DNA of 20,130 bases from a virus: the IMG/VR virus record IMGVR_UViG_3300034198_013131, positions 1 through 20,130 of that record. One strand, given 5' to 3'. Positions within the stretch are counted from its first letter, which is position 1. Each line of letters starts with the position of its first letter. The position numbers and the translations under genes were made by a program. Positions 1,211-20,044 of the stretch are shown piece by piece. The notes below the pieces were generated by a model. It saw only the letters and a list, made by a program, of their open reading frames with translations, was not told where the DNA came from and did not search any database.

Positions 1211-1636
1211 TCACTTGTAGAAAATGTAAGGCTGAACTTTATTTTTTGTATTACTCAAAGTTATATGTGCATTTTTGGCTTGATCAATTTCCAGATAATT
1301 GCAAATATTATCGATTTCTAAACTTTTTACCATCATATAGAAATTCATGAAGTTTTTGGTTCGTCCTCCGATTCGGATATCAGGATCATACTCAAAATTA
1401 ATAATTCTATTTTTGTAAAATTGTCGGAGAAATTTGGCTTTTTCCTCGGAAAGGTTTCCATGAATTTTAGGGAGAAATAAAGAAATGTGTGCTCCATGTG
1501 CAGGAGTGTGGGAAAACATTCGAAATTCTTTATCAATTAGAGATTTATAGAATAGAATGAAATCCAGAGAGACGGAAATCCGAACAACGTCCGATTTTAC
1601 CTCCAAAATTCCTTGTGATTTTAGCCATCTATTCAT
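1211..1636 (-). CDS. small 2H phosphoesterase, candidate Acb1-like anti-CBASS nuclease
   Basis: This 141-residue protein has two histidine motifs in the arrangement of the 2H phosphoesterase superfamily: HIS (His50-Ile-Ser52, in GAHISLFLP) and HIT (His124-Ile-Thr126, in NAHITLSN), 74 residues apart, each at the end of a predicted beta strand. Superfamily members cut or form 2'-5' or 2',3'-cyclic phosphate linkages. The small single-domain size and motif spacing are like phage Acb1, which degrades the cyclic nucleotide messengers of CBASS immunity, but other members (RNA 2',3'-cyclic phosphodiesterases, 2'-5' RNA ligases) are possible and no family-specific residue decides it. The ATG overlaps the upstream gene's TGA as ATGA (1633-1636), so it is probably translated by coupling. 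It lies among accessory genes, a fitting place for a counter-defence gene. Confidence 0.62.
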   Translation of the reverse strand: MNRWLKSQGILEVKSDVVRISVSLDFILFYKSLIDKEFRMFSHTPAHGAHISLFLPKIHGNLSEEKAKFLRQFYKNRIINFEYDPDIRIGGRTKNFMNFYMMVKSLEIDNICNYLEIDQAKNAHITLSNTKNKVQPYIFYK

Positions 1637-1950
1637 AGGGAATAAAATCCTAGATATAATGTATGTCGAACATTCGTATTATATTCCGATGTAGAATATT
1701 CAGGGGTTATTTTTTGGTAAACAACCGAATATCCCTGATAAGGAAAAGATCCTGCTGAATCAATTGAATTATATTCTTCTTCCGTGACCGTAATATATTT
1801 TTCGAATTTGACGGGGTTTGATAAGGAGATTCCTCTTGGATCTGAATAAATTCTCGTAGTAGAAATCCACCGAGTTCCGTCAAAATGATCAATTTCGGTA
1901 TAGTCCCATCTGTAGGAAATTTTTAAATATTTTTCAAGAAGTTCTTTCAT
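1633..1950 (-). CDS. hypothetical protein, 105 aa
   Basis: I do not recognise this protein. It is acidic, rich in Tyr, Ser and Thr, with an N-terminal helix (MKELLEKYLK) followed by what looks like beta-rich sequence. The start is set at the ATG at 1950 and not at the in-frame TTG at 1983: that TTG is the first part of TTGACA, a -35 box with a TATGTT -10 box 16 bases further on, leaving the ATG five bases beyond it. It ends in an ATGA overlap with the 2H-phosphoesterase gene, so the two form a small operon and may share a role. It diverges from the metallophosphoesterase gene. Confidence 0.68.
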   Translation of the reverse strand: MKELLEKYLKISYRWDYTEIDHFDGTRWISTTRIYSDPRGISLSNPVKFEKYITVTEEEYNSIDSAGSFPYQGYSVVYQKITPEYSTSEYNTNVRHTLYLGFYSL

Positions 1951-1955
1951 AATTG

Positions 1956-1983
1956 AACATACTGGATTTTCAGAATTTGTCAA
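1956..1983 (-). promoter_or_regulatory. promoter for the 1950 gene
   Basis: TTGACA (1983-1978), 16-base spacer, TATGTT (1961-1956), then five bases and ATG. Transcription would be expected to begin at about the start codon, giving a leaderless message. The facing promoter for the gene at 2032 has its -35 box only 12 bases away (1996-2001), so the two polymerase sites nearly abut. Confidence 0.6.
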
Positions 1984-3521: not shown

Positions 3522-3765
3522 AAATCAGGTCTTGTCAAAACGTTGTCCAAATTGTCTAACTGAAGATCCTCGGACATCTGTGACCGAACGACAATCTCAG
3601 GAAATTAATGGAAAATGTGGTTTATTGGAAGTGGATTTATTAAAATGTGGTAATTGTTGATTTCGTATAATCCCCGATAAAAGTGTAAATGCTAAACTTC
3701 GACAAATAGGAAAATCGGAATTCATTCAAGTATATCGAAAACATTTGACACAAACTAAATCTTAG
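3514..3765 (+). pseudogene. zinc-ribbon protein interrupted by an in-frame TGA
   Basis: From the ATG at 3514 the frame reads a zinc ribbon: CPNC at residues 11-14 and CGNC at 45-48. Directly after the last Cys comes TGA (3658-3660), and the same frame then continues for 34 residues (FRIIPDKSVNAKLRQIGKSE and on) to a TAG at 3763. The continuation looks coding. Position 49 in such ribbons is commonly Gly, so GGA to TGA by one base change is the simplest origin; TGG to TGA is the alternative. TGA acts as a true stop elsewhere in the window, so general recoding is unlikely. Options are a nonsense mutation, a sequencing error, programmed readthrough, or a 48-residue protein that still holds all four Cys. 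It is coupled to the YopX gene through ATGAATAA, and the -35 box of the next promoter lies in its last codons. Confidence 0.6.
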
Positions 3766-3773
3766 TATATATT
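3745..3773 (+). promoter_or_regulatory. promoter for the P-loop NTPase gene
   Basis: TTGACA (3745-3750), 17-base spacer, TATATT (3768-3773), eight bases to the ATG at 3782. A consensus-quality site. The predicted start point is within two or three bases of the ATG, so the message would be leaderless or nearly so. Confidence 0.68.
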
Positions 3774-3781
3774 ATATCATT

Positions 3782-4465
3782 ATGCGCATCAGTTTCATAG
3801 GAACCCAAAATGTCGGCAAGTCATCAGTTATTCAGGAATTTATTAAAAAATATCCTATGTTCAAACTTCCCGAAAAATCATATCGGGATGTTATTAAAGA
3901 ACAAAATCTGGATATCAATGAAAACGGGACATTGGAGTCTCAGAAGATCATCAGAGACGTTCTGGTTGATATGGCACTGGAGAATGCCGGTAAGACGCAT
4001 ACGGTGCATGACAGGACCGTTCTGGACAATCTGGCATATACTCTATGGCTGGGAGAATACGACAAGCTGGAAGGCACTGATGATGAGATTAGTGATTTTA
4101 TTGCAACTACCATTCTCTTGGTGAAAGAATCGATGAAGTTCTACGACATTATTTTCTGGATTCCGATCAATCCTAATATTCCTTTGGTTGCTAAAGAAAA
4201 TCGTTCCTTGAATTTGGAATATCGGCAGGAGATTGATAATATTTTTGACGGATTTTATGAACACTATAAATCCAATTCAGGACTTCTCTTTGATAAGGAA
4301 GATCAACCTTGTGTAATTAAACTGGAAGGCGAATTGCAGCAACGTATGGATACTATTGCTATGTATATTGCAGATGATGGAGGATTGGTGGAGACAGAAA
4401 GATCCGCCATTGCCGATTTGGAAACTGCATGGGAAGAAGAACAATTGCGCAGACAAGTTCGATAA
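3782..4465 (+). CDS. P-loop NTPase, AAA_28/NadR-like kinase fold
   Basis: A 227-residue nucleotide-binding protein. Residues 7-15 (GTQNVGKSS) form a Walker A loop right after the first beta strand. VHDRTVLDNLAY (75-86) matches the D-R-[TS]-x-x-D-x-x-A-Y element of NadR/thymidylate-kinase-like P-loop kinases, where it binds the acceptor, and FWIPINP (about 125-131) is the next core strand. This class includes phage nucleoside and nucleotide kinases and NadR-type ribosylnicotinamide kinases; the sequence does not say which substrate. The C-terminal 30 residues are a charged helix. Bases about 3940-4080 are visibly richer in G and C than the surroundings, with codons such as CTG and GCC, which may mark a different origin. 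It has its own promoter and is convergent with the gene ending at 4493. Confidence 0.78.
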   Translation: MRISFIGTQNVGKSSVIQEFIKKYPMFKLPEKSYRDVIKEQNLDINENGTLESQKIIRDVLVDMALENAGKTHTVHDRTVLDNLAYTLWLGEYDKLEGTDDEISDFIATTILLVKESMKFYDIIFWIPINPNIPLVAKENRSLNLEYRQEIDNIFDGFYEHYKSNSGLLFDKEDQPCVIKLEGELQQRMDTIAMYIADDGGLVETERSAIADLETAWEEEQLRRQVR

Positions 4466-4492: not shown

Positions 4493-5095
4493 TCAATTAA
4501 TTGTTATTGGATTAGTAAGTTTTAGAAAATATGTATTTATTAATCCAATTCCCACATATCCGGGAATATTCGTGAAATCTTGAATTATATTTTTAAATTG
4601 CGCAATGTTTTGAACATTATTAAAGGTCTTCAGTAATAGAATATGATCTTTTAATCTGTAATTGTTTAATTGTTTTTCATCTTCATAATCTTGAATTTTT
4701 TCTTTGAATGATTTTATCATATAGTCTTCTTCAGAATTAGGAGATTCTGCAAATCTTTTTCTGTATGATCTTTCAGAATTTTGTGTGTCAACAATACGTT
4801 TTTTGTCTTCCGAAATATCTTTAGCTAAAAGTATTTTTATACCTTTCAATACAGTCTCTTCTCCATTGTTTTTAACAAGTTCATGCAAACTGGCAGTCAT
4901 ACTTGATATATTGTTCGGTGTATTTTTTAAATTAAACTCTACGCTATAAGAATTAGGTGCTATCATACTTGCCCTAGAGGGCGACTGTGCATTAGCTGCC
5001 ATAGAAGATCCTAACAAAGCCGCTGATGCCGCTGCATTTCTTAAAAAATGCTTTTCTAAGAACAAATTCACATAATTATCGAATTGATGGGTCAT
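4493..5095 (-). CDS. hypothetical protein with a signal-peptide-like N-terminal segment
   Basis: Not recognised; 200 residues. Residues about 18-38 (FLRNAAASAALLGSSMAANA) form an Ala-rich hydrophobic stretch after a basic residue and before ANA-QS, which looks like a signal peptide with an A-x-A cleavage site, although the region before it is unusually long. The remainder is charged and helical, with a likely coiled-coil or helical-bundle section at 100-150. If exported it would act in the host envelope or at lysis; the segment could instead be a plain Ala-rich helix. It is the only minus-strand gene in this part, lies between two plus-strand clusters, and has TAAATA five bases upstream of its ATG. 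Confidence 0.65.
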   Translation of the reverse strand: MTHQFDNYVNLFLEKHFLRNAAASAALLGSSMAANAQSPSRASMIAPNSYSVEFNLKNTPNNISSMTASLHELVKNNGEETVLKGIKILLAKDISEDKKRIVDTQNSERSYRKRFAESPNSEEDYMIKSFKEKIQDYEDEKQLNNYRLKDHILLLKTFNNVQNIAQFKNIIQDFTNIPGYVGIGLINTYFLKLTNPITIN

Positions 5096-5113
5096 AAATA
5101 TATTTACTAATTT
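5084..5113 (+). promoter_or_regulatory. weak promoter for the PD-(D/E)XK-like gene
   Basis: TTGATG (5084-5089), 18-base spacer, TAATTT (5108-5113), eight bases to the ATG at 5122. It fits the same layout as the other plus-strand sites but both boxes are weaker. It overlaps the start of the divergent gene at 5095, so the two would compete. Confidence 0.42.
5101..5106 (-). promoter_or_regulatory. TAAATA box upstream of the 5095 gene
   Basis: TAAATA with five bases to the ATG at 5095. One of four such boxes before minus-strand starts. It suggests this gene belongs to the same, perhaps late, expression class as the structural operon. Confidence 0.35.
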
Positions 5114-8005: not shown

Positions 8006-8048
8006 AAACAAAAAACTCGCTATATCTAATATAGCGAGTTTTTTGTTT
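8006..8048. terminator. bidirectional rho-independent terminator
   Basis: A perfect inverted repeat: two 20-base arms (8006-8025 and 8029-8048) around the three-base loop CTA. The core CTCGCTATAT/ATATAGCGAG is flanked by six A on one side and six T on the other, so each strand ends in a T run after a stable stem. It sits between the convergent FkbM and PhoH genes and should stop both transcripts. Confidence 0.95.
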
Positions 8049-8056
8049 TTATTCTA

Positions 8057-8782
8057 TTATGTATTGATTAGCTTTTTGTAATCGCTGTATCGTTTAGATA
8101 CAAATTTAACAAACTTGCTTCTCATCACTAAATCAGGATCTTTCATTTCATAATATGAGATTCCGTTATTACGACTCTCTTGATCATTGAATAAGTTTAC
8201 AAGTTTCTCAAATTCGTGTTGTTGGTTTTTGGGTAAATCGCATTGATCGGAATCTGCTACCATAAATAATTTAGAAGTTTCTTCCAATCGAGTCATAACC
8301 AAGGTGGATTCTGCTAAGGTCCAATTCTGACACTCATCGCCAATAATCACCGCATCTTTCAAGCTTCTTCCTCGAAGAAAAGATAAAGGAACAACTTCAA
8401 TGGTTTTTGTATCTAAGAATTGTGTAATTTCTGAAGGATTCAGCAACTTATTTAAGGAATCTAATAATGGAAACGAATACTGTAAAATCTTGTCTGCAAC
8501 ATCGCCAGGAAGCAAGCCGATCTTTGTTCCTGCTGATTCTACGGCACTTCTCACGTAATAGATTTTTTTATACTTACCTTCCTGCAATAACGTCAAGGCT
8601 GCATATGTGGACATGATAGTTTTTCCACATCCTGCTAATGCATCAATAATAACACATGAAGTGTTTCTATTAAGCATTTTATCTATAATTTCTTTCTGTG
8701 TGTTATTCCAAACAAATGGTTGGGCGATTAGAAAAGAATTTTTCATCTTCTCTCTTATTTTTCCTACACGGTTATTAGCCAT
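8057..8782 (-). CDS. phoH: PhoH-like ATPase
   Basis: A 241-residue PhoH-family P-loop protein, related to superfamily 1 helicases and to the phosphate-starvation protein PhoH. Walker A is LAGCGKT (49-55), and IIGDECQNWT (146-155) is the Walker B/DExxQ-N element that identifies PhoH. YYVRSAVESAGTKIGLLPGD (75-94) is the strongly conserved segment between them, where many PhoH proteins have R-P-x-V-x-x-G-x-x-x-G-F-L-P-G. PhoH is common in T4-like phages; its role in infection is uncertain, with RNA or nucleotide metabolism proposed. It is the last gene of the minus-strand operon, ten bases after the gp4-like gene, and is followed by the terminator. Confidence 0.95.
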   Translation of the reverse strand: MANNRVGKIREKMKNSFLIAQPFVWNNTQKEIIDKMLNRNTSCVIIDALAGCGKTIMSTYAALTLLQEGKYKKIYYVRSAVESAGTKIGLLPGDVADKILQYSFPLLDSLNKLLNPSEITQFLDTKTIEVVPLSFLRGRSLKDAVIIGDECQNWTLAESTLVMTRLEETSKLFMVADSDQCDLPKNQQHEFEKLVNLFNDQESRNNGISYYEMKDPDLVMRSKFVKFVSKRYSDYKKLINT

Positions 8783-8792
8783 AAAAAATTTA

Positions 8793-9278
8793 TTAAGTTG
8801 TTAAAATTGTATCAATGTTCTTCTCGGTGATAATGATAAATTGTATATCACGATTCTTAGTTCTCTTCTGTTCTACACACCATTGTCTAGCAGCATCCCA
8901 TTTGTTTGTATTATTTAGGAAAGCCACGGATTCATACATGACCGTGCTCTTCTTTTTATTGCCGTGTTCCGTAGGAGGAAGGGTTTGTTTATGTGGTTTT
9001 ATTTCCACGATATATTCCTTTATAACTTCTCCGAGTTTTATCTTGAAGTAAAAATCCACAAAATATCGGGCTATCCGTTGTTCAGATGATTTAAAATACG
9101 GAATGACTACTTTTTCACTGCTCCATTCCAGTATATTATCATTCTTATCCAGAACATTCATCATTTTCATCTCCAATCCAGAACGATATTCAGGAGGGGT
9201 CTTATTGAGGCATTTGGCCTTGTTTACTGGCTTATACAAGCCTTGCTTGAACTCACGATAGGTCCGCTTTGGTTTCAT
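8793..9278 (-). CDS. T4 gp4-like head-completion nuclease (TnsA-like fold)
   Basis: 161 residues matching the T4 gene 4 (50/65) head-completion protein and the N-terminal nuclease fold of TnsA. The order of motifs fits: YRSGLEMKMMNVLD (31-44, catalytic Glu36), EWSSEKVVIPYF (51-62), RYFVDFYFK (71-79, catalytic Asp75), YIVEIKPHKQTLPP (89-102, with Glu92-x-Lys94 and Gln98), then an aromatic/Trp-containing helix (NTNKWDAARQWC) and a last strand FIIITEKN. In T4 this protein is added to the filled head before tail joining and has nuclease-fold residues; its exact action is not settled. The ATG overlaps the TGA of the membrane-protein gene (ATGA, 9275-9278). It places this operon among virion assembly genes. 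Confidence 0.9.
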   Translation of the reverse strand: MKPKRTYREFKQGLYKPVNKAKCLNKTPPEYRSGLEMKMMNVLDKNDNILEWSSEKVVIPYFKSSEQRIARYFVDFYFKIKLGEVIKEYIVEIKPHKQTLPPTEHGNKKKSTVMYESVAFLNNTNKWDAARQWCVEQKRTKNRDIQFIIITEKNIDTILTT

Positions 9279-13333: not shown

Positions 13334-14033
13334 TGTTGTATAATGCTGAATCGTAAATCCAAGAACTTCCTGTAGAATTTACTACAAATTTAAGACCAGT
13401 GATTATGCTAATAAATTGATCAGTTACTGAAAGATCAAGCCTTTGATTTCCGCAATCTACATTAACATTTTTCACTCCTCCTCGATTTCCTGCTCCAATA
13501 CAATTTACTGAATAGGAAACTTGCACGGTCTTAATTCCTAAATTCTTCTCTTGTGAAAATATTTTATTGATCTGAGAATATTGCGGAGTGAAAATGAACA
13601 ATTCTTGTCCTGCAATAAAATTGATGCAAGTCTCGGTATTGACGGGAAGAGATGCATTAACCCATGCAGTGACATCATTAATGATATTTTCTTCAGAACC
13701 TTCTACATTGAAAGGATATGGATAAATTAAAGAAATTGGTTTTAACCAAATGGCTGAAAGATTTTTGACAGTATTGTAGGTATTTTGCCAACAGGAAATA
13801 TTCAAATCTACTGTATTGATGGTATCGATCCATTTTGCACTATTAGTATTGACTATGTTATAGAGGTTATTCCATAGATTTCTAGCACTAAATTCAAAAT
13901 TACAAGTGTATACATCCAATGCATTAAAATTGTAATTAATAGAAGATAAGGAATCGCCGATATTTTCCGTATCTGTGATAGGGAATACTATTTGATTATC
14001 CGTAACTTTACATATTTCTCTGAAATAATTCAT
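13326..14033 (-). CDS. phage structural protein with S-A-x-W motifs, 235 aa
   Basis: Paralogue of the neighbouring 364-residue protein in its N-terminal half. It has repeated segments of the W-x-x-x-Y-x-x-V-x-x-x-S-A-x-W kind: LWNNLYNIVNTNSAKW and CWQNTYNTVKNLSAIW, about 26 residues apart. The C-terminal 70 residues contain strand-rich sequence with CIGAGNRGGVKNVNVDCGNQ, perhaps a disulphide or a glycine-rich receptor-binding or assembly part. A tail fibre, baseplate or head-fibre protein is likely. TAAATA lies six bases before the ATG, which itself is nine bases past the stop of the 1712-residue gene; a separate late promoter may therefore start here. Confidence 0.72.
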   Translation of the reverse strand: MNYFREICKVTDNQIVFPITDTENIGDSLSSINYNFNALDVYTCNFEFSARNLWNNLYNIVNTNSAKWIDTINTVDLNISCWQNTYNTVKNLSAIWLKPISLIYPYPFNVEGSEENIINDVTAWVNASLPVNTETCINFIAGQELFIFTPQYSQINKIFSQEKNLGIKTVQVSYSVNCIGAGNRGGVKNVNVDCGNQRLDLSVTDQFISIITGLKFVVNSTGSSWIYDSALYNND

Positions 14034-14039
14034 TAGAAC

Positions 14040-14045
14040 TATTTA
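14040..14045 (-). promoter_or_regulatory. TAAATA box upstream of the 14033 gene
   Basis: TAAATA, six bases before ATG. It also contains the TAA stop of the 1712-residue gene, so the match could come from the stop codon context. Same spacing as the box before 19181. Confidence 0.3.
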
Positions 14046-17000
14046 GCATGATGATAAGCAATTGGCAAATATCAAATCAGGAGTTGAACAGCATATTTCA
14101 GTAGCTTCCCAAGTGCTGGGATGTCCACATTTGGAATTTAACTCAGTGGATTCCCAAGTTAAAGGGAAATAACTATTACTCTGTGTCTGTTCGAAGTTCC
14201 AACATATCTGCGAATGGTTCCCACCAAGTCCTTCTCTAATATGACACCACGAGGTAATCGAACTCAATGCAGTGCTTCCCGCAATATTGGAACTTTTCAG
14301 TTCGTTCCAAGAGATTGGGGTCTTATTTGATGAAGGACGTTGCACACTGTCTATATAATGATAATTCCATCTCCATTTAATGGATGATTCTGAAGAATAA
14401 TTGAATATTACATCCAGATTATTTTTCAATTGAACACAGCTATCATAAAGAGATTCAAAAGAACGATTGATAGTATCGTATAATACTGGTTCGTTTTTCC
14501 CGACGATTATTGATGTGGCAGAAATGGGAGGAGGCGTATATGATGAGCTGTATTGATTTAACACCGTATCGTATCCGCTCATATCAAGTTGTAAATTCTT
14601 TATTATTCTGGAATTCAATAAACGTATATTATCGTAAAGTTTTTGAAAAGAATCATTATAGATATAATCTGTAACAAATTCATATTCATCTACGTATATA
14701 GAATCCAGAGGAAATCCTGCAAGGGTTTCATTAGTGTTGATCAAATGATCAATTTCAATAAAATCTACAAATTTAATAATATAAGTGGGGAATATTAGAT
14801 ATCCGTGATATTTGTCAAATATTACATCTGAGATGTTATCAGAGTATTTTTTAGAGGTAATGAATGTTCCGTTTGTGGAATATTTTGACACTTCATTTTT
14901 GGATATTGTATAGAATATGCCGTTATGTATTTTGTTAAATATCGCATTAGTGTTTACGGATATTACTTCTTTAGCGTTTCCGTAATTATCCATGACATAT
15001 ACTCCGTTTTCAGTAGACGTTAAGAATAGATTATGTGCATAGTCTATATTATTAGGATTTTCAATAGATATGTTACGAATCCAATTTAAATTTTTGTTAT
15101 AAACTTTAATAAAGTTGGAATCCTTATCCACGATATATAAATTCTTTTCAGAATCCAAGCAGAAATCTGTGGGATTGTTAAGTTTTGTTCTATCAGATTT
15201 TTCTCCAAAACCTCCCCAATAATGGGTTAATTTGATATTGGTGGAAGAATTGATGTCAAAATCACATATCAACATCAACCGTTTGTCATTATCAAGAATA
15301 TACAGTCTTTTTAAATCTGAATCATAATGTAATTTTATAGGATTTTCTAAAATTTCTCCGTCACTAATTCTAGAGATTCGCTGTAAAAATACTGGAGTGT
15401 TTCCTAATTGATATATTTCAATATAGGAGTTATTAATAATGATTAATTTGTCGTCAACAATTTGACTGCATTTTATGTTGGAAAATGGAGTGTTGGAGAT
15501 TCCTGTAGTAGAAGAGTTTGTATGCCATTGGAAATTTCCTAATTTCGACCCTAAAAATCCTCCATATGCTTTGGGGAAATTTAAGTTATTAATGTTTGTC
15601 ATAGCACTTAAATATGCGATGTTAGTATATAATTTTTCCAAACTTCTGTTTATATTATTAGCATATTGCCAATCATTAGCAGCTACTTGTATATTTTCCA
15701 GTGAATAAGGGAGATTTATAGGTTTATTAAATTCTCGAATAATAGATTCGTCGTAATGTTCCAATTCAGTCTTTACGAATACTAATTTATCCCAAGATTG
15801 AACTCGGGTTTCTCCATTAGCTAATATACCAGTAAGTGAAGGAGATTTTGCTCCATCAGAGAGGTAAAAGGTTGATAAAATCGGAGACACGGTAGTCTGG
15901 ATATTACCTTCCCCATTATCAAATATGAATGAGATGAATCCATAATCTGCATTGTCAAATGTCAAATTCGAATTGTTGTAAAAAATGGCAGGTTCAGTGG
16001 CAGACAGTATATTTTTTGAAGTATATAGATTGAGTAGAGGACCGTTGTATGCTGTTAGATATACTGTATTTGAGATTATTGATTGTTGTGAAGAACAATA
16101 ATCATAACCGTCAATCGTTACGTCTACATTTCCTGATAGATATACAGCTAATGGATTGAATGAATTTTCGGAAATGTTAAAATCTGAATTTTCTGTTCCA
16201 AAAATTAAGATTTTAGAAAATGAATCCCAATAATTTTCAATAGGTTTAATTTGAACGGCATTATGTCCACTTATTACAACATTAAAGGTATAGTTATTGA
16301 TTGAAGTTCCGGGATGAATTGCGGTTCCTTCAATATTAGGCATAGTGGAATATCTTACGGTATCTACTAAGGTATTGGTAGATGTCAGACTTATGTTAGA
16401 TATAGGGAAGTCTAAAAATCTTACGGCTTCTTTATATTTGTTTATTCCATTGGACGATACGCTATTATAAATGGTTACTGGATCATATTCAGAGAAAGCG
16501 AAATTATATGCAGAAATAGATATGGTATTATCATCGGAAATATTGTCGAATGTGATTGGAATGCTAATTTTATTATTGTTAGATTCTGCTATTTTATTCC
16601 CTATTCTCCATATGTATTTGTCAAATCCTCCAAAAGTGGAAAGATTGAATATTTCGGTATGACAAGGTTTATAGGCGGACATACCATCAGATTCTGTATA
16701 ATTGTCAAACGTTAGAGTAGTTTTGGGATAGGTATATTTATTGGATGGAAAGCCGATATAATCTAATGGGCGAACAGATGATAAATTGTAAAAGCACATC
16801 CTATCAGAAAAATTATACGACTCGAAATTTCCCTCAATTGGTTTTGCGCTTATTCCTAATAAAGTAACACATGCCGAAATAGTGTTTAAATTCAGATTAA
16901 ATAGTTCTCCTGTTCCTGTATTGATTGAACCGTCACTTTTAATAGATTTCCATTGTAGGTTTGACGGATTTACTATTAGTTTAGGATGAAATGCTGACAA

Positions 17001-19181
17001 AGATACAATTCCACCACTTGTATATATTACATTGGTATAGGTTTCACTGTTGTATATTTTATTATCCAATGATTTTTTTGCATTGATGGTGAGATAATAA
17101 CCGTCAGGATATTGTCTCACAGTAAATATCTTAGTTGCATTTAAATTGAGATCATTTCTAAACAAATTGCAGGATACGTTAAAAACAATCCGTTTAGGAT
17201 TCCCAGACACAGGAGATGCCGAAAATACTGGATTAATTAAAGCATATTGATCAGTGCTACCATAAATGGTGGATTCTCTAATTTCTTTAAAATCATGGGC
17301 AAAGAATTGTAGATTCCCTCTACTATCATTGGCAGTTTCATTCCAAATAATATTTGCGTCGGTAGGAACCCTGTAGGTATAGCCGTTACGAACGCATAGT
17401 GCACTGAGAGTCCCGTAATTGAGTTGATCGTCATCCGATACTCCTCCAACCAATCGAAGACTCATGTCGCCTGCAACCGAACTCGGAGGAAACCAAAAAG
17501 TGGATGCCGACAAGTCATATTCTTCCGAATATAAGGTAATTTCAGTTTTATCCACTCCTAGATTTGAAATAGTAGCGAAATAATCGGGTGAAACTAATGT
17601 GTTTGATGGAATAATGTCACCATTTAGATTTTTGAATATAATATTTTCCGGGGGATTTGCAGACCATTTAATTTTATAATCTTCGGAAGGTGTCGGAAAT
17701 ATTACGACATCCGAGGTAGCGGAAGATTCCGTAATATCCTTAAGAGACAAATTCATAAAAATTTTATCCTTGTTAAGAAGAAATGTGGTTTCTACATTTT
17801 CTTCAAATAAAGAATCGAATATTGATTTAAGTTGAATCTTGACGGTGTGTTTATTTCCGTTTCCGTCATTGATGAATCTCGTTTTTCTGTTAGCAGGAAA
17901 CCATTGGTTGTTGCCGTAAAGAATGCCTGGATATGCTGGATCAAATGAACTTAATGATATATCACCAGTTGTTTCAATGAATCTTTTTTGTAGTAAATTA
18001 TCAACTACTGGCATCGCAAAAGAATTTTGGTAATAATTATCAACCATCACGGTGTTTACATCTACGGAAGAAATTGTAGAAGTAGTTACATAAGATGATG
18101 GTTGGAATGATACTGTTAATAGATCTTGGGTATTGTCGGAAAATTGATAATTGAACAGATAAACGGGATAGTTTGCAAAAGTCACCGGATTGACACTGAC
18201 ATTATAATTATTAGTGGCTAAACTAGTGAAAACAATTCCTGCATTGACTGGAGAAGAAGTTTCATATGACATAGTTATATTGTCATATTTGTTGATAAAT
18301 AAAGGAGCATTAAATGTGATTGTAACATTTCCTCCTGTTTCATTCATTGCTGCTCCATTGGATGCAGTATATGGATATGGAATGCCTAGTGCACATAATG
18401 TTTCGCTGGAAAGGCATGTTAAATATGTTAGTCCTGCGCTTACAGTGTTGACCCTATTATTAGTATAGGTATCGTTGAAAAAACTCAAAGTAAATATTTG
18501 GTTTTCTTTATCAGGAATTACCGTTTTATCAATGACTACTGGAATATCTATTTGAAAACTATTTGGAATAATATTTGGTCCAAGGATCGAAGAATTGAAT
18601 GTGCTGAAGTAGTTAGCATTTTGTGAATATACGTATTTTTTTCGAGTTCTGGACGTATATGCCCGTTGCTTAGTGGTAGTAATTAAGGTATCATCGAAGT
18701 TTACATTTGAAAATCCATTACGTTTAATAAATTTCCTAAATTGGGGGGTTTTATATTCTCCTTCAAAAGCAGTGGCACTGACAACCCCAATATCCACGGA
18801 AATATTATAATCATTGTTCTTAGTAATCCTCGGATAAGGATGTGCAGGCCATACAGTAAGTCCCGAAAGTCCCCCTAAAAGGGTAAGATAGAGATATTCT
18901 CTGTCGCTGAATACGTCCCATTTAAACGGGGTAAATTCTGTAGGATTTACGAAGTTGGTCGGAAATCTTGCACTAATGGAACCGCCAGCAGTATTGTTGC
19001 TGACTAATGTGTATTCTGGAGTCTGTTTGAAATTAATTTTATTATCTAATGTGTTGTAATAAAAATACTTGAACCGAACACCTAAACGTGCATTGCTTAT
19101 AGGATTAGTGATTTCATTAAAATAAATTTTAATTTCCTCATTTGGATAATAATTAGTAATTTCTATTCCAGATAGTAACAT
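14043..19181 (-). CDS. giant virion protein with NHL-like propeller, 1712 aa
   Basis: A very long Asn/Ser/Thr/Tyr-rich beta protein, probably a tail-fibre, baseplate or adhesion component. Residues 1 to about 1150 look like a chain of beta-sandwich domains; around 840-900 (TFGGFDKYIWRIGNKIAES) one resembles a PKD-like fold. Residues about 1235-1476 form an NHL-type beta-propeller, with blade sequences such as KLHYDSDLKRLYILDNDKRL, DFCLDSEKNLYIVDKDSNFI and NGVYVMDNYGNAKEV. Three related 20-residue motifs flank it: INRSLEKLYTNIAYL (about 1175), YNDSFQKLYDNIRLL (about 1510) and INRSFESLYDSCVQL (about 1575). The last 70 residues are rich in Trp and Cys with a short repeat (TWESTE, TWEATE). No signal peptide or protease domain is seen. 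It heads the minus-strand operon and is preceded by TAAATA. Confidence 0.85.
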   Translation of the reverse strand: MLLSGIEITNYYPNEEIKIYFNEITNPISNARLGVRFKYFYYNTLDNKINFKQTPEYTLVSNNTAGGSISARFPTNFVNPTEFTPFKWDVFSDREYLYLTLLGGLSGLTVWPAHPYPRITKNNDYNISVDIGVVSATAFEGEYKTPQFRKFIKRNGFSNVNFDDTLITTTKQRAYTSRTRKKYVYSQNANYFSTFNSSILGPNIIPNSFQIDIPVVIDKTVIPDKENQIFTLSFFNDTYTNNRVNTVSAGLTYLTCLSSETLCALGIPYPYTASNGAAMNETGGNVTITFNAPLFINKYDNITMSYETSSPVNAGIVFTSLATNNYNVSVNPVTFANYPVYLFNYQFSDNTQDLLTVSFQPSSYVTTSTISSVDVNTVMVDNYYQNSFAMPVVDNLLQKRFIETTGDISLSSFDPAYPGILYGNNQWFPANRKTRFINDGNGNKHTVKIQLKSIFDSLFEENVETTFLLNKDKIFMNLSLKDITESSATSDVVIFPTPSEDYKIKWSANPPENIIFKNLNGDIIPSNTLVSPDYFATISNLGVDKTEITLYSEEYDLSASTFWFPPSSVAGDMSLRLVGGVSDDDQLNYGTLSALCVRNGYTYRVPTDANIIWNETANDSRGNLQFFAHDFKEIRESTIYGSTDQYALINPVFSASPVSGNPKRIVFNVSCNLFRNDLNLNATKIFTVRQYPDGYYLTINAKKSLDNKIYNSETYTNVIYTSGGIVSLSAFHPKLIVNPSNLQWKSIKSDGSINTGTGELFNLNLNTISACVTLLGISAKPIEGNFESYNFSDRMCFYNLSSVRPLDYIGFPSNKYTYPKTTLTFDNYTESDGMSAYKPCHTEIFNLSTFGGFDKYIWRIGNKIAESNNNKISIPITFDNISDDNTISISAYNFAFSEYDPVTIYNSVSSNGINKYKEAVRFLDFPISNISLTSTNTLVDTVRYSTMPNIEGTAIHPGTSINNYTFNVVISGHNAVQIKPIENYWDSFSKILIFGTENSDFNISENSFNPLAVYLSGNVDVTIDGYDYCSSQQSIISNTVYLTAYNGPLLNLYTSKNILSATEPAIFYNNSNLTFDNADYGFISFIFDNGEGNIQTTVSPILSTFYLSDGAKSPSLTGILANGETRVQSWDKLVFVKTELEHYDESIIREFNKPINLPYSLENIQVAANDWQYANNINRSLEKLYTNIAYLSAMTNINNLNFPKAYGGFLGSKLGNFQWHTNSSTTGISNTPFSNIKCSQIVDDKLIIINNSYIEIYQLGNTPVFLQRISRISDGEILENPIKLHYDSDLKRLYILDNDKRLMLICDFDINSSTNIKLTHYWGGFGEKSDRTKLNNPTDFCLDSEKNLYIVDKDSNFIKVYNKNLNWIRNISIENPNNIDYAHNLFLTSTENGVYVMDNYGNAKEVISVNTNAIFNKIHNGIFYTISKNEVSKYSTNGTFITSKKYSDNISDVIFDKYHGYLIFPTYIIKFVDFIEIDHLINTNETLAGFPLDSIYVDEYEFVTDYIYNDSFQKLYDNIRLLNSRIIKNLQLDMSGYDTVLNQYSSSYTPPPISATSIIVGKNEPVLYDTINRSFESLYDSCVQLKNNLDVIFNYSSESSIKWRWNYHYIDSVQRPSSNKTPISWNELKSSNIAGSTALSSITSWCHIREGLGGNHSQICWNFEQTQSNSYFPLTWESTELNSKCGHPSTWEATEICCSTPDLIFANCLSSC

Positions 19182-19187
19182 TGATAA

Positions 19188-19193
19188 TATTTA
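19188..19193 (-). promoter_or_regulatory. TAAATA late-promoter-like box before the giant virion gene
   Basis: AATAAATA ends six bases before the ATG of the 1712-residue gene, one base different from the T4 late promoter TATAAATA. Being the first gene of the structural operon and opposite a divergent plus-strand gene, this is where a late promoter is expected. There is no -35 box of the TTGACA kind at the right distance. Confidence 0.48.
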
Positions 19194-19605: not shown

Positions 19606-19634
19606 TTGACTTAATCAATCGTCCAGATTATATT
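19606..19634 (+). promoter_or_regulatory. promoter for the 55-aa gene and IF-1 operon
   Basis: TTGACT (19606-19611), 17-base spacer, TATATT (19629-19634), only five bases to the ATG at 19640. A start point seven bases past the box would fall on or inside the ATG, so this message would be leaderless or the first gene begins later. It drives the small operon carrying the IF-1 homologue. Confidence 0.65.
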
Positions 19635-19639
19635 GTAGT

Positions 19640-19807
19640 ATGAATGAACTGACTATTGAAGATTTCGCGTTTAAAGTGATTGATGCATCTGTAGACAATG
19701 CGGGAAACTTTGCAAAATTTAAGTTATTTTGGAAATGTTATGATAAATTAAAGGAATCTCAGGTGGATGAATTTTTAAATAAATTGAAAACTGAACTATT
19801 AAAATAA
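19640..19807 (+). CDS. hypothetical protein, 55 aa
   Basis: Begins MNELTIEDFAFKVIDASVDN and ends in a charged helix (ESQVDEFLNKLKTELLK). Two or three helices with an aromatic core (FAKFKLFWKCYDKL) are likely. Not recognised. The gene lies directly under a good promoter and three bases before the ATG of the IF-1 homologue, so both should be on one transcript. Confidence 0.65.
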   Translation: MNELTIEDFAFKVIDASVDNAGNFAKFKLFWKCYDKLKESQVDEFLNKLKTELLK

Positions 19808-19810
19808 TTT

Positions 19811-20044
19811 ATGAAAAATGACCACAAAGCAAAAGAATCTATGCTCCAGACCACTGGAATCATTGATAAAATTTTGCCAAATGCTCAGTATAATGTAAAA
19901 ATTCCCCAAACAGGAAATGTCGTCCTTTGTTATGTTTGTGGAAAGATGAGCAAACGATATACCAAACTTGCAGTAGGAGACTCTGTAAAATTTGAGATGT
20001 CAGTATATGATACGAAAAAAGGACGCATTACTCAACGCTTATAA
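19811..20044 (+). CDS. infA: translation initiation factor IF-1 homologue
   Basis: A 77-residue single OB-fold protein that aligns over its length with bacterial IF-1, which binds the ribosomal A site during initiation. Matching elements in order: AKES (7-10) as in the IF-1 N-terminus, GIIDKILPNAQYNVKI (16-31) against G-T-V-x-E-x-L-P-N-x-x-F-x-V, then VVLCYVCGKMSKRYTKLAVGD (38-58) with the G-K-M-x-K-x-Y and G-D elements, and YDTKKGRITQR (66-76) against Y-D-L-S-K-G-R-I-x-x-R. The basic GKM-S-K-R-Y loop, which contacts 16S rRNA in IF-1, is kept. The N-terminus is a few residues longer (MKNDHKAKES); a start at residue 11 is also possible. It sits in a promoter-driven phage operon, between two hypothetical genes, not in the bacterial ribosomal-protein context. 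It may adjust host initiation toward phage messages. Confidence 0.92.
   Translation: MKNDHKAKESMLQTTGIIDKILPNAQYNVKIPQTGNVVLCYVCGKMSKRYTKLAVGDSVKFEMSVYDTKKGRITQRL

Follow-up and report, generated by a model that had tools for sequence, protein, structure and literature searches.

Translation initiation factor IF-1 has been reported in huge phages, where it was proposed to redirect host translation (PMC7162821), and it is a core gene of the Jug phages (PMC12363816). Phage IF-1 appears in lists of translation genes, although no functional test was found in the literature searched, and at least 500 stretches in IMG/VR encode IF-1 relatives. In the open-access literature searched, we found no report of leaderless T4-like phages, and the same holds for a gene-expression layout in which T4-related phages would place promoters directly against start codons. 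Here, we analyzed a stretch of 20,130 bases from an IMG/VR virus record (hereafter, the window), in which an infA-like gene at positions 19811-20044 on the plus strand encodes a 77-residue IF-1. Phage IF-1 itself is already known; the new part is the lineage that carries it, an Arg-to-Ser change in the protein and promoters that abut start codons.

The gene was confirmed as a genuine member of the IF-1 family by profile matches and a modeled fold. The first-pass annotation had described an IF-1 reading frame with the motifs AKES, G-K-M-x-K-x-Y and KGRI-x-x-R, all of which were present, as AKES, GKMSKRY and KGRITQR, in the 77-residue protein encoded at exactly 19811-20044 (+). It had also proposed a profile search, a structure prediction and a phylogeny as checks. 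The profile search exceeded the curated cut-offs of Pfam PF01176 (55.4 bits, cut-off 30.2, E-value 4.7e-15) and of the NCBIfam infA equivalog TIGR00008 (68.3 bits, cut-off 61.15, E-value 4e-19), while the RsgA_N Pfam match stayed under its own cut-off. The protein also matched phrog_30201 (62.3 bits); this family, labelled "unknown function" in PHROG, matched the IF-1 of a related contig (G017) as well, so phrog_30201 is an IF-1 family. An AlphaFold model built from an alignment of 59 sequences had a mean pLDDT of 84.7 and a pTM of 0.71, and its best PDB matches were solved IF-1 structures. In particular, all of the top 13 matches were IF-1, with TM-scores of up to 0.93 and an rmsd of approximately 1 Å, and eIF1A and RsgA ranked below them. 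These best matches included 4ql5 (E-value 5.8e-8), chain 9fco_I of the E. coli 30S-IF1-IF3 complex (TM-scores of 0.85/0.93) and 1hr0_W, which is IF1 bound to the 30S subunit.

Comparison of the residues revealed that the positions invariant in the 59 aligned IF-1s (L, G, G-D, S, Y-D, G-R and R) were kept in the window protein, which was approximately 36-46% identical to the bacterial IF-1s fetched and carried a one-residue insertion ahead of the LCY strand. The residue straight after G-K-M/L in the rRNA-binding loop was Arg in all 28 bacterial IF-1s aligned and Lys or Arg in all 30 other phage IF-1s. The window IF-1 lacks a basic residue at this position and has Ser, as do its two relatives from contigs G017 and G021 (3/3 lineage members, with the loop motif GKM-S-K-R/K-Y/F); K48 and R49, which adjoin this Ser in the window IF-1, are basic. 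The basic residue is a conserved IF-1 feature that is not known to be essential, and the presence of Ser there does not outweigh the equivalog match. A Ser at an otherwise Arg/Lys position could, however, alter the 30S binding of the phage IF-1.

Single-sequence scans of IMG/VR with IF-1, the PhoH-like ATPase (8057-8782, minus strand; Pfam and PHROG profile matches) and a 1712-residue orphan protein (14043-19181, minus strand) revealed no relatives. The lineage was found with two-row alignments and with the T4-type gp4 head closure/completion protein (8793-9278, minus strand; phrog_218 at 142 bits, with cyanophage and T4-like tblastn matches), which was used as the phage marker. The gp4 scan gave a contig (L182) with ten genes in common with the window, and the two-row alignments gave contigs of up to 135,915 bases. 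The window genes, including the orphan, whose relatives were found only in this phage lineage, were approximately 26-71% identical to their counterparts. A PF01176 match was present in five of the 17 lineage contigs, of which four (G015, G016, G017 and G020) appear to be near-copies and G021 is independent; the search detected no IF-1 in the other 12, and all of these contigs are fragments. The window IF-1 was 48-51% identical to the two independent relatives (G017 and G021), and the three proteins formed one clade with a support of 99/95, which argues for a maintained function. The tree otherwise resolved little because IF-1 is very short: an earlier tree without the lineage members put the window protein on a branch of length 3.8 with its placement unresolved, and their inclusion fixed its sister group, though not its origin.

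The relatives also carry tRNA arrays. Contig G017 (136 kb) encodes 28 tRNAs, and G029 has 25 tRNAs in approximately 11 kb, beginning at the point that corresponds to the IF-1 end of the window, which therefore probably ends shortly before a similar array. Among the initiation proteins IF-1, IF3 and bS21, IF-1 was the sole one detected. Since extra fMet-tRNA favors leaderless mRNA (PMC9031893), an initiator tRNA was sought among the phage tRNA-Met genes, which showed no clear initiator hallmarks by eye. TAG recoding was ruled out, as the relatives use TAG as a stop codon. Additionally, G017 (L241-L247) encodes a nicotinamide phosphoribosyltransferase, an NAD synthetase and a ribonucleotide reductase, with RNA-ligase matches, and a gene near its IF-1 showed a weak QueC match.

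IF-1 had been described as lying under its own promoter, and this held in part. A sigma70-type promoter, TTGACT-N17-TATATT (19606-19634, plus strand), is indeed present upstream and is predicted to be leaderless, but it ends 5 nt before the ATG at 19640 of a 55-residue ORF (19640-19807, plus strand), which IF-1 follows as second cistron after a gap of 3 nt. The first cistron had no relative by tblastn in the contigs compared. The unit is divergent from the 1712-residue gene, and IF-1 lies 0.63 kb from that gene in the window and approximately 1.4 kb from it in G021. The G021 IF-1 gene directly carries TAAATA-CTTTT-ATG, and that of G017 lies directly behind tRNA-Val, -Arg and -Leu, where maturation of the tRNA would give the message a short 5' end.

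Similar arrangements were found elsewhere in the window. On the plus strand, TTGACA-N16-TATATT (1996-2023) and TTGACA-N17-TATATT (3745-3773) each end 8 nt before an ATG, at 2032 for a phosphoesterase and at 3782 for a thymidylate-kinase-like (AAA_28) protein. On the minus strand, TTGACA-N16-TATGTT (1956-1983) ends 5 nt before the ATG at 1950; the TTG start of the gene called at 1633-1983 (minus strand) is probably this promoter's -35 TTGACA, and the true start is probably the ATG at 1950. Four minus-strand genes instead have a T4-late-like TAAATA box: at 19188-19193, 6 nt before the ATG at 19181 of the 1712-residue gene; at 14040-14045, 6 nt before the ATG at 14033; at 5101-5106, 5 nt before the ATG at 5095; and at 1173-1178, 5 nt before the GTG at 1167 of a homing endonuclease. 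The first two arrangements recur close before the homologous genes of G017, at 87420 and 92650, respectively. The -10 hexamers of promoters normally lie 6-7 nt ahead of the transcription start, and the predicted 5' ends would thus fall on the start codons. We also found SD-like motifs before only approximately 7% of the window genes and, in a further count, before 4% of starts, compared with 46-52% in T4 by similar counts, which bears out the earlier claim that the messages lack Shine-Dalgarno sequences.

We consider it probable, judging from sequence and model, that the gene at 19811-20044 is a working, diverged IF-1 of an uncultivated T4-related phage lineage that supplements or replaces host IF-1 within a translation package. 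The phage IF-1 would bind host ribosomes at the 30S A site, in the manner of cellular IF-1, and would add to or stand in for host IF-1 during infection. Together with the many phage tRNAs, it may form a package that sustains initiation on SD-less, largely leaderless phage messages; a preference of the protein for phage messages would be a speculative further step. According to a review (PMC9031893), both IF1 and IF2 promote leaderless translation in vitro, and IF1 strongly stimulates 70S scanning, whereas IF3 at higher levels inhibits leaderless translation. This accords with a phage in which IF-1 was found but neither IF3 nor bS21 was detected. The compact IF-1 lineage, the tRNA arrays, the leaderless signature and the lack of a detected IF3 or bS21 provide a concrete system for asking why a phage would carry IF-1.

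A more specialized role is possible, but we regard it as rather unlikely. The phage IF-1, with the host's other factors, would then steer initiation to AUGs at the 5' terminus at the expense of host messages, within a translation program based on leaderless mRNA. In the same tentative vein, the early-type and late-type units of the T4-related lineage might be largely leaderless, with the modified IF-1 and the large tRNA arrays making host ribosomes prefer 5'-terminal AUGs. The strong leaderless signature across the lineage and the lineage-specific Arg-to-Ser change beside the rRNA-binding loop are consistent with this role, as is the detection of IF-1 without IF3 or bS21, given that IF3 opposes leaderless initiation (PMC9031893). 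However, Lak and Phosso have IF-1 without such promoters, DAC19 shows no clear peak of them, and the available fragments of more distant gp4 relatives have the TAAATA/ATG layout with no IF-1 detected, so the causal link is put forward as a hypothesis. Several IF-1 phages are leadered, and IF-1 and the leaderless layout are not coupled in general. Moreover, a host that is itself SD-independent could account for the pattern, which may then merely mirror that of the host.

The leaderless appearance could itself be an artefact of wrong starts or of chance matches in AT-rich DNA, with real leaders arising from other promoters; the genome is approximately 31% GC, which would favor such matches, but the counts make this explanation improbable. 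We counted promoters that agree with TTGACA/TATAAT at 10 or more of the 12 positions, have a spacer of 16-17 and end 5-8 nt before an ATG, and found them at 9 of 47 curated starts in the window and L182, whereas a Markov simulation gave a mean of 0.09 and a maximum of 2 in 2000 runs. A TAAATA box lay 5-7 nt upstream of six more of these 47 starts (simulated mean 0.33, maximum 3). The TAAATA pattern had been noticed without recourse to six other lineage contigs, of which at least two (G023 and G024) look like near-copies. In these six, the box lay 5-7 nt before the ATG at 47 of 370 starts, with approximately one expected; the first-start gaps numbered 17, 11 and 19 at 5, 6 and 7 nt, where 0.31 would be expected for each gap. 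These peaks were sharp, with almost nothing elsewhere, and several of the genes align with homologues from residue 1 or 2. In contrast, a peak of this kind was absent from T4, the cyanophage S-WAM2, Lak and Phosso, and DAC19 (23% GC) was diffuse with no clear peak. The suggestion that the messages appear leaderless was upheld statistically as a prediction, with -10 elements 5-8 nt before start codons, no SD and a similar layout in relatives, and a leaderless architecture is strongly predicted for the lineage. As a separate observation, the more distant gp4 contigs (L183-L203, many of which may be near-copies) had TAAATA peaks 5 and 7 nt before the ATG (28 and 17 of 265 starts) and SD-like motifs at 26%. 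A BLAST-level search with T4 gp55 gave no homologue and is uninformative at that sensitivity.

It is very unlikely that this protein is a derivative of IF-1 turned decoy or inhibitor, which would sit in the 30S A site or on some RNA target with less than full IF-1 activity and stop host initiation, or that it is an RNA chaperone or antiterminator. Its diverged sequence and the Ser at an otherwise basic position would suit such a function; nevertheless, it passes the infA equivalog cut-off and keeps the other invariant positions and the fold.

Host infA does occur in "phage" records (Acinetobacter phage MD-2021a), but the chance that the window is bacterial chromosome and its IF-1 the host's own is negligible and this reading is refuted by the phage relatives, as the DNA is an IMG/VR virus record whose gp4, PhoH-like and 1712-residue genes are common to lineage contigs, some with IF-1, and whose IF-1 is only approximately 36-46% identical to the bacterial ones fetched. 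The phage origin asserted in the first-pass annotation thus stands. A contig of 20 kb and a largest relative fragment of 136 kb do not establish a very large phage. Among T4-type structural genes, gp4 and a tail tube protein (phrog_45) were detected, and a gp23 model matched one relative over 39 positions only. Further window genes encode a GIY-YIG homing endonuclease, a thymidylate-kinase-like ATPase, glycosyltransferases and an FkbM methyltransferase. Rfam had no match within the window. Between convergent genes, positions 8006-8048 form a strong hairpin of 20 bp that is followed by a T-rich tail on either strand and is likely a bidirectional terminator. Several other IF-1 records labelled as phage were excluded because they are probably bacterial chromosome: L004 (CAKLQH020000005.1), deposited as an Acinetobacter phage, was assigned here to a bacterial chromosome by annotation (leuBCD, truA and infA), and the unannotated records OR846589 and OR844994 are, by inference, probably alike.

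A Bacteroidota host had also been implied, and our results do not establish it. The Bacteroidota promoter type is TAnnTTTG, unlike the TTGACA/TATATT promoters of the window. In the proposed phylogeny, the window IF-1 fell outside Bacteroidota, although the grouping was not formally rejected (AU p=0.12). Transcripts of F. johnsoniae are reported to be mostly leadered (PMC6847099).

Compared with bacterial IF-1 (infA, PF01176/TIGR00008), the window IF-1 has a similar length, the same OB fold and invariant positions and a similar region around the rRNA-binding loop; it differs in the Ser for Arg after GKM, the one-residue insertion, its phage origin and the tRNA neighbors in relatives. A large IMG/VR phage IF-1 clade (L023-L101, "LCY" type) has the same insertion and an LC(Y) motif; the insertion and LC are also present in L117, an IF-1 from a member of the Prevotellaceae. 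In part of this clade TAAATA peaks 4-6 nt before the ATG, but its members have no other gene in common with the window, and any single clade with the window lineage would be tentative. Conserved neighboring genes, whose families recur at 40-46 loci, accompany IF-1 in this clade, as do radical-SAM genes. In Bacteroides phage DAC19_4, a protein annotated as hypothetical (L008:627-932, QIG63495.1) is IF-1-like with an N-terminal extension of approximately 30 residues. The IF-1s of huge phages (Lak, those of Al-Shayeb 2020 in PMC7162821, the Jug phages of PMC12363816, and Phosso) are likewise phage-encoded, but they belong to another phage lineage and are approximately 37-44% identical to that of the window, whose lineage has a T4-related gp4; Lak and Phosso are without its leaderless-type promoters. 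Finally, T4 late promoters (TATAAATA) have the TAAATA core in common with the lineage boxes, but in T4 the core lies 9-39 nt before the ATG with a cluster at 24-28 nt, whereas the peak in the window lineage is at 5-7 nt.
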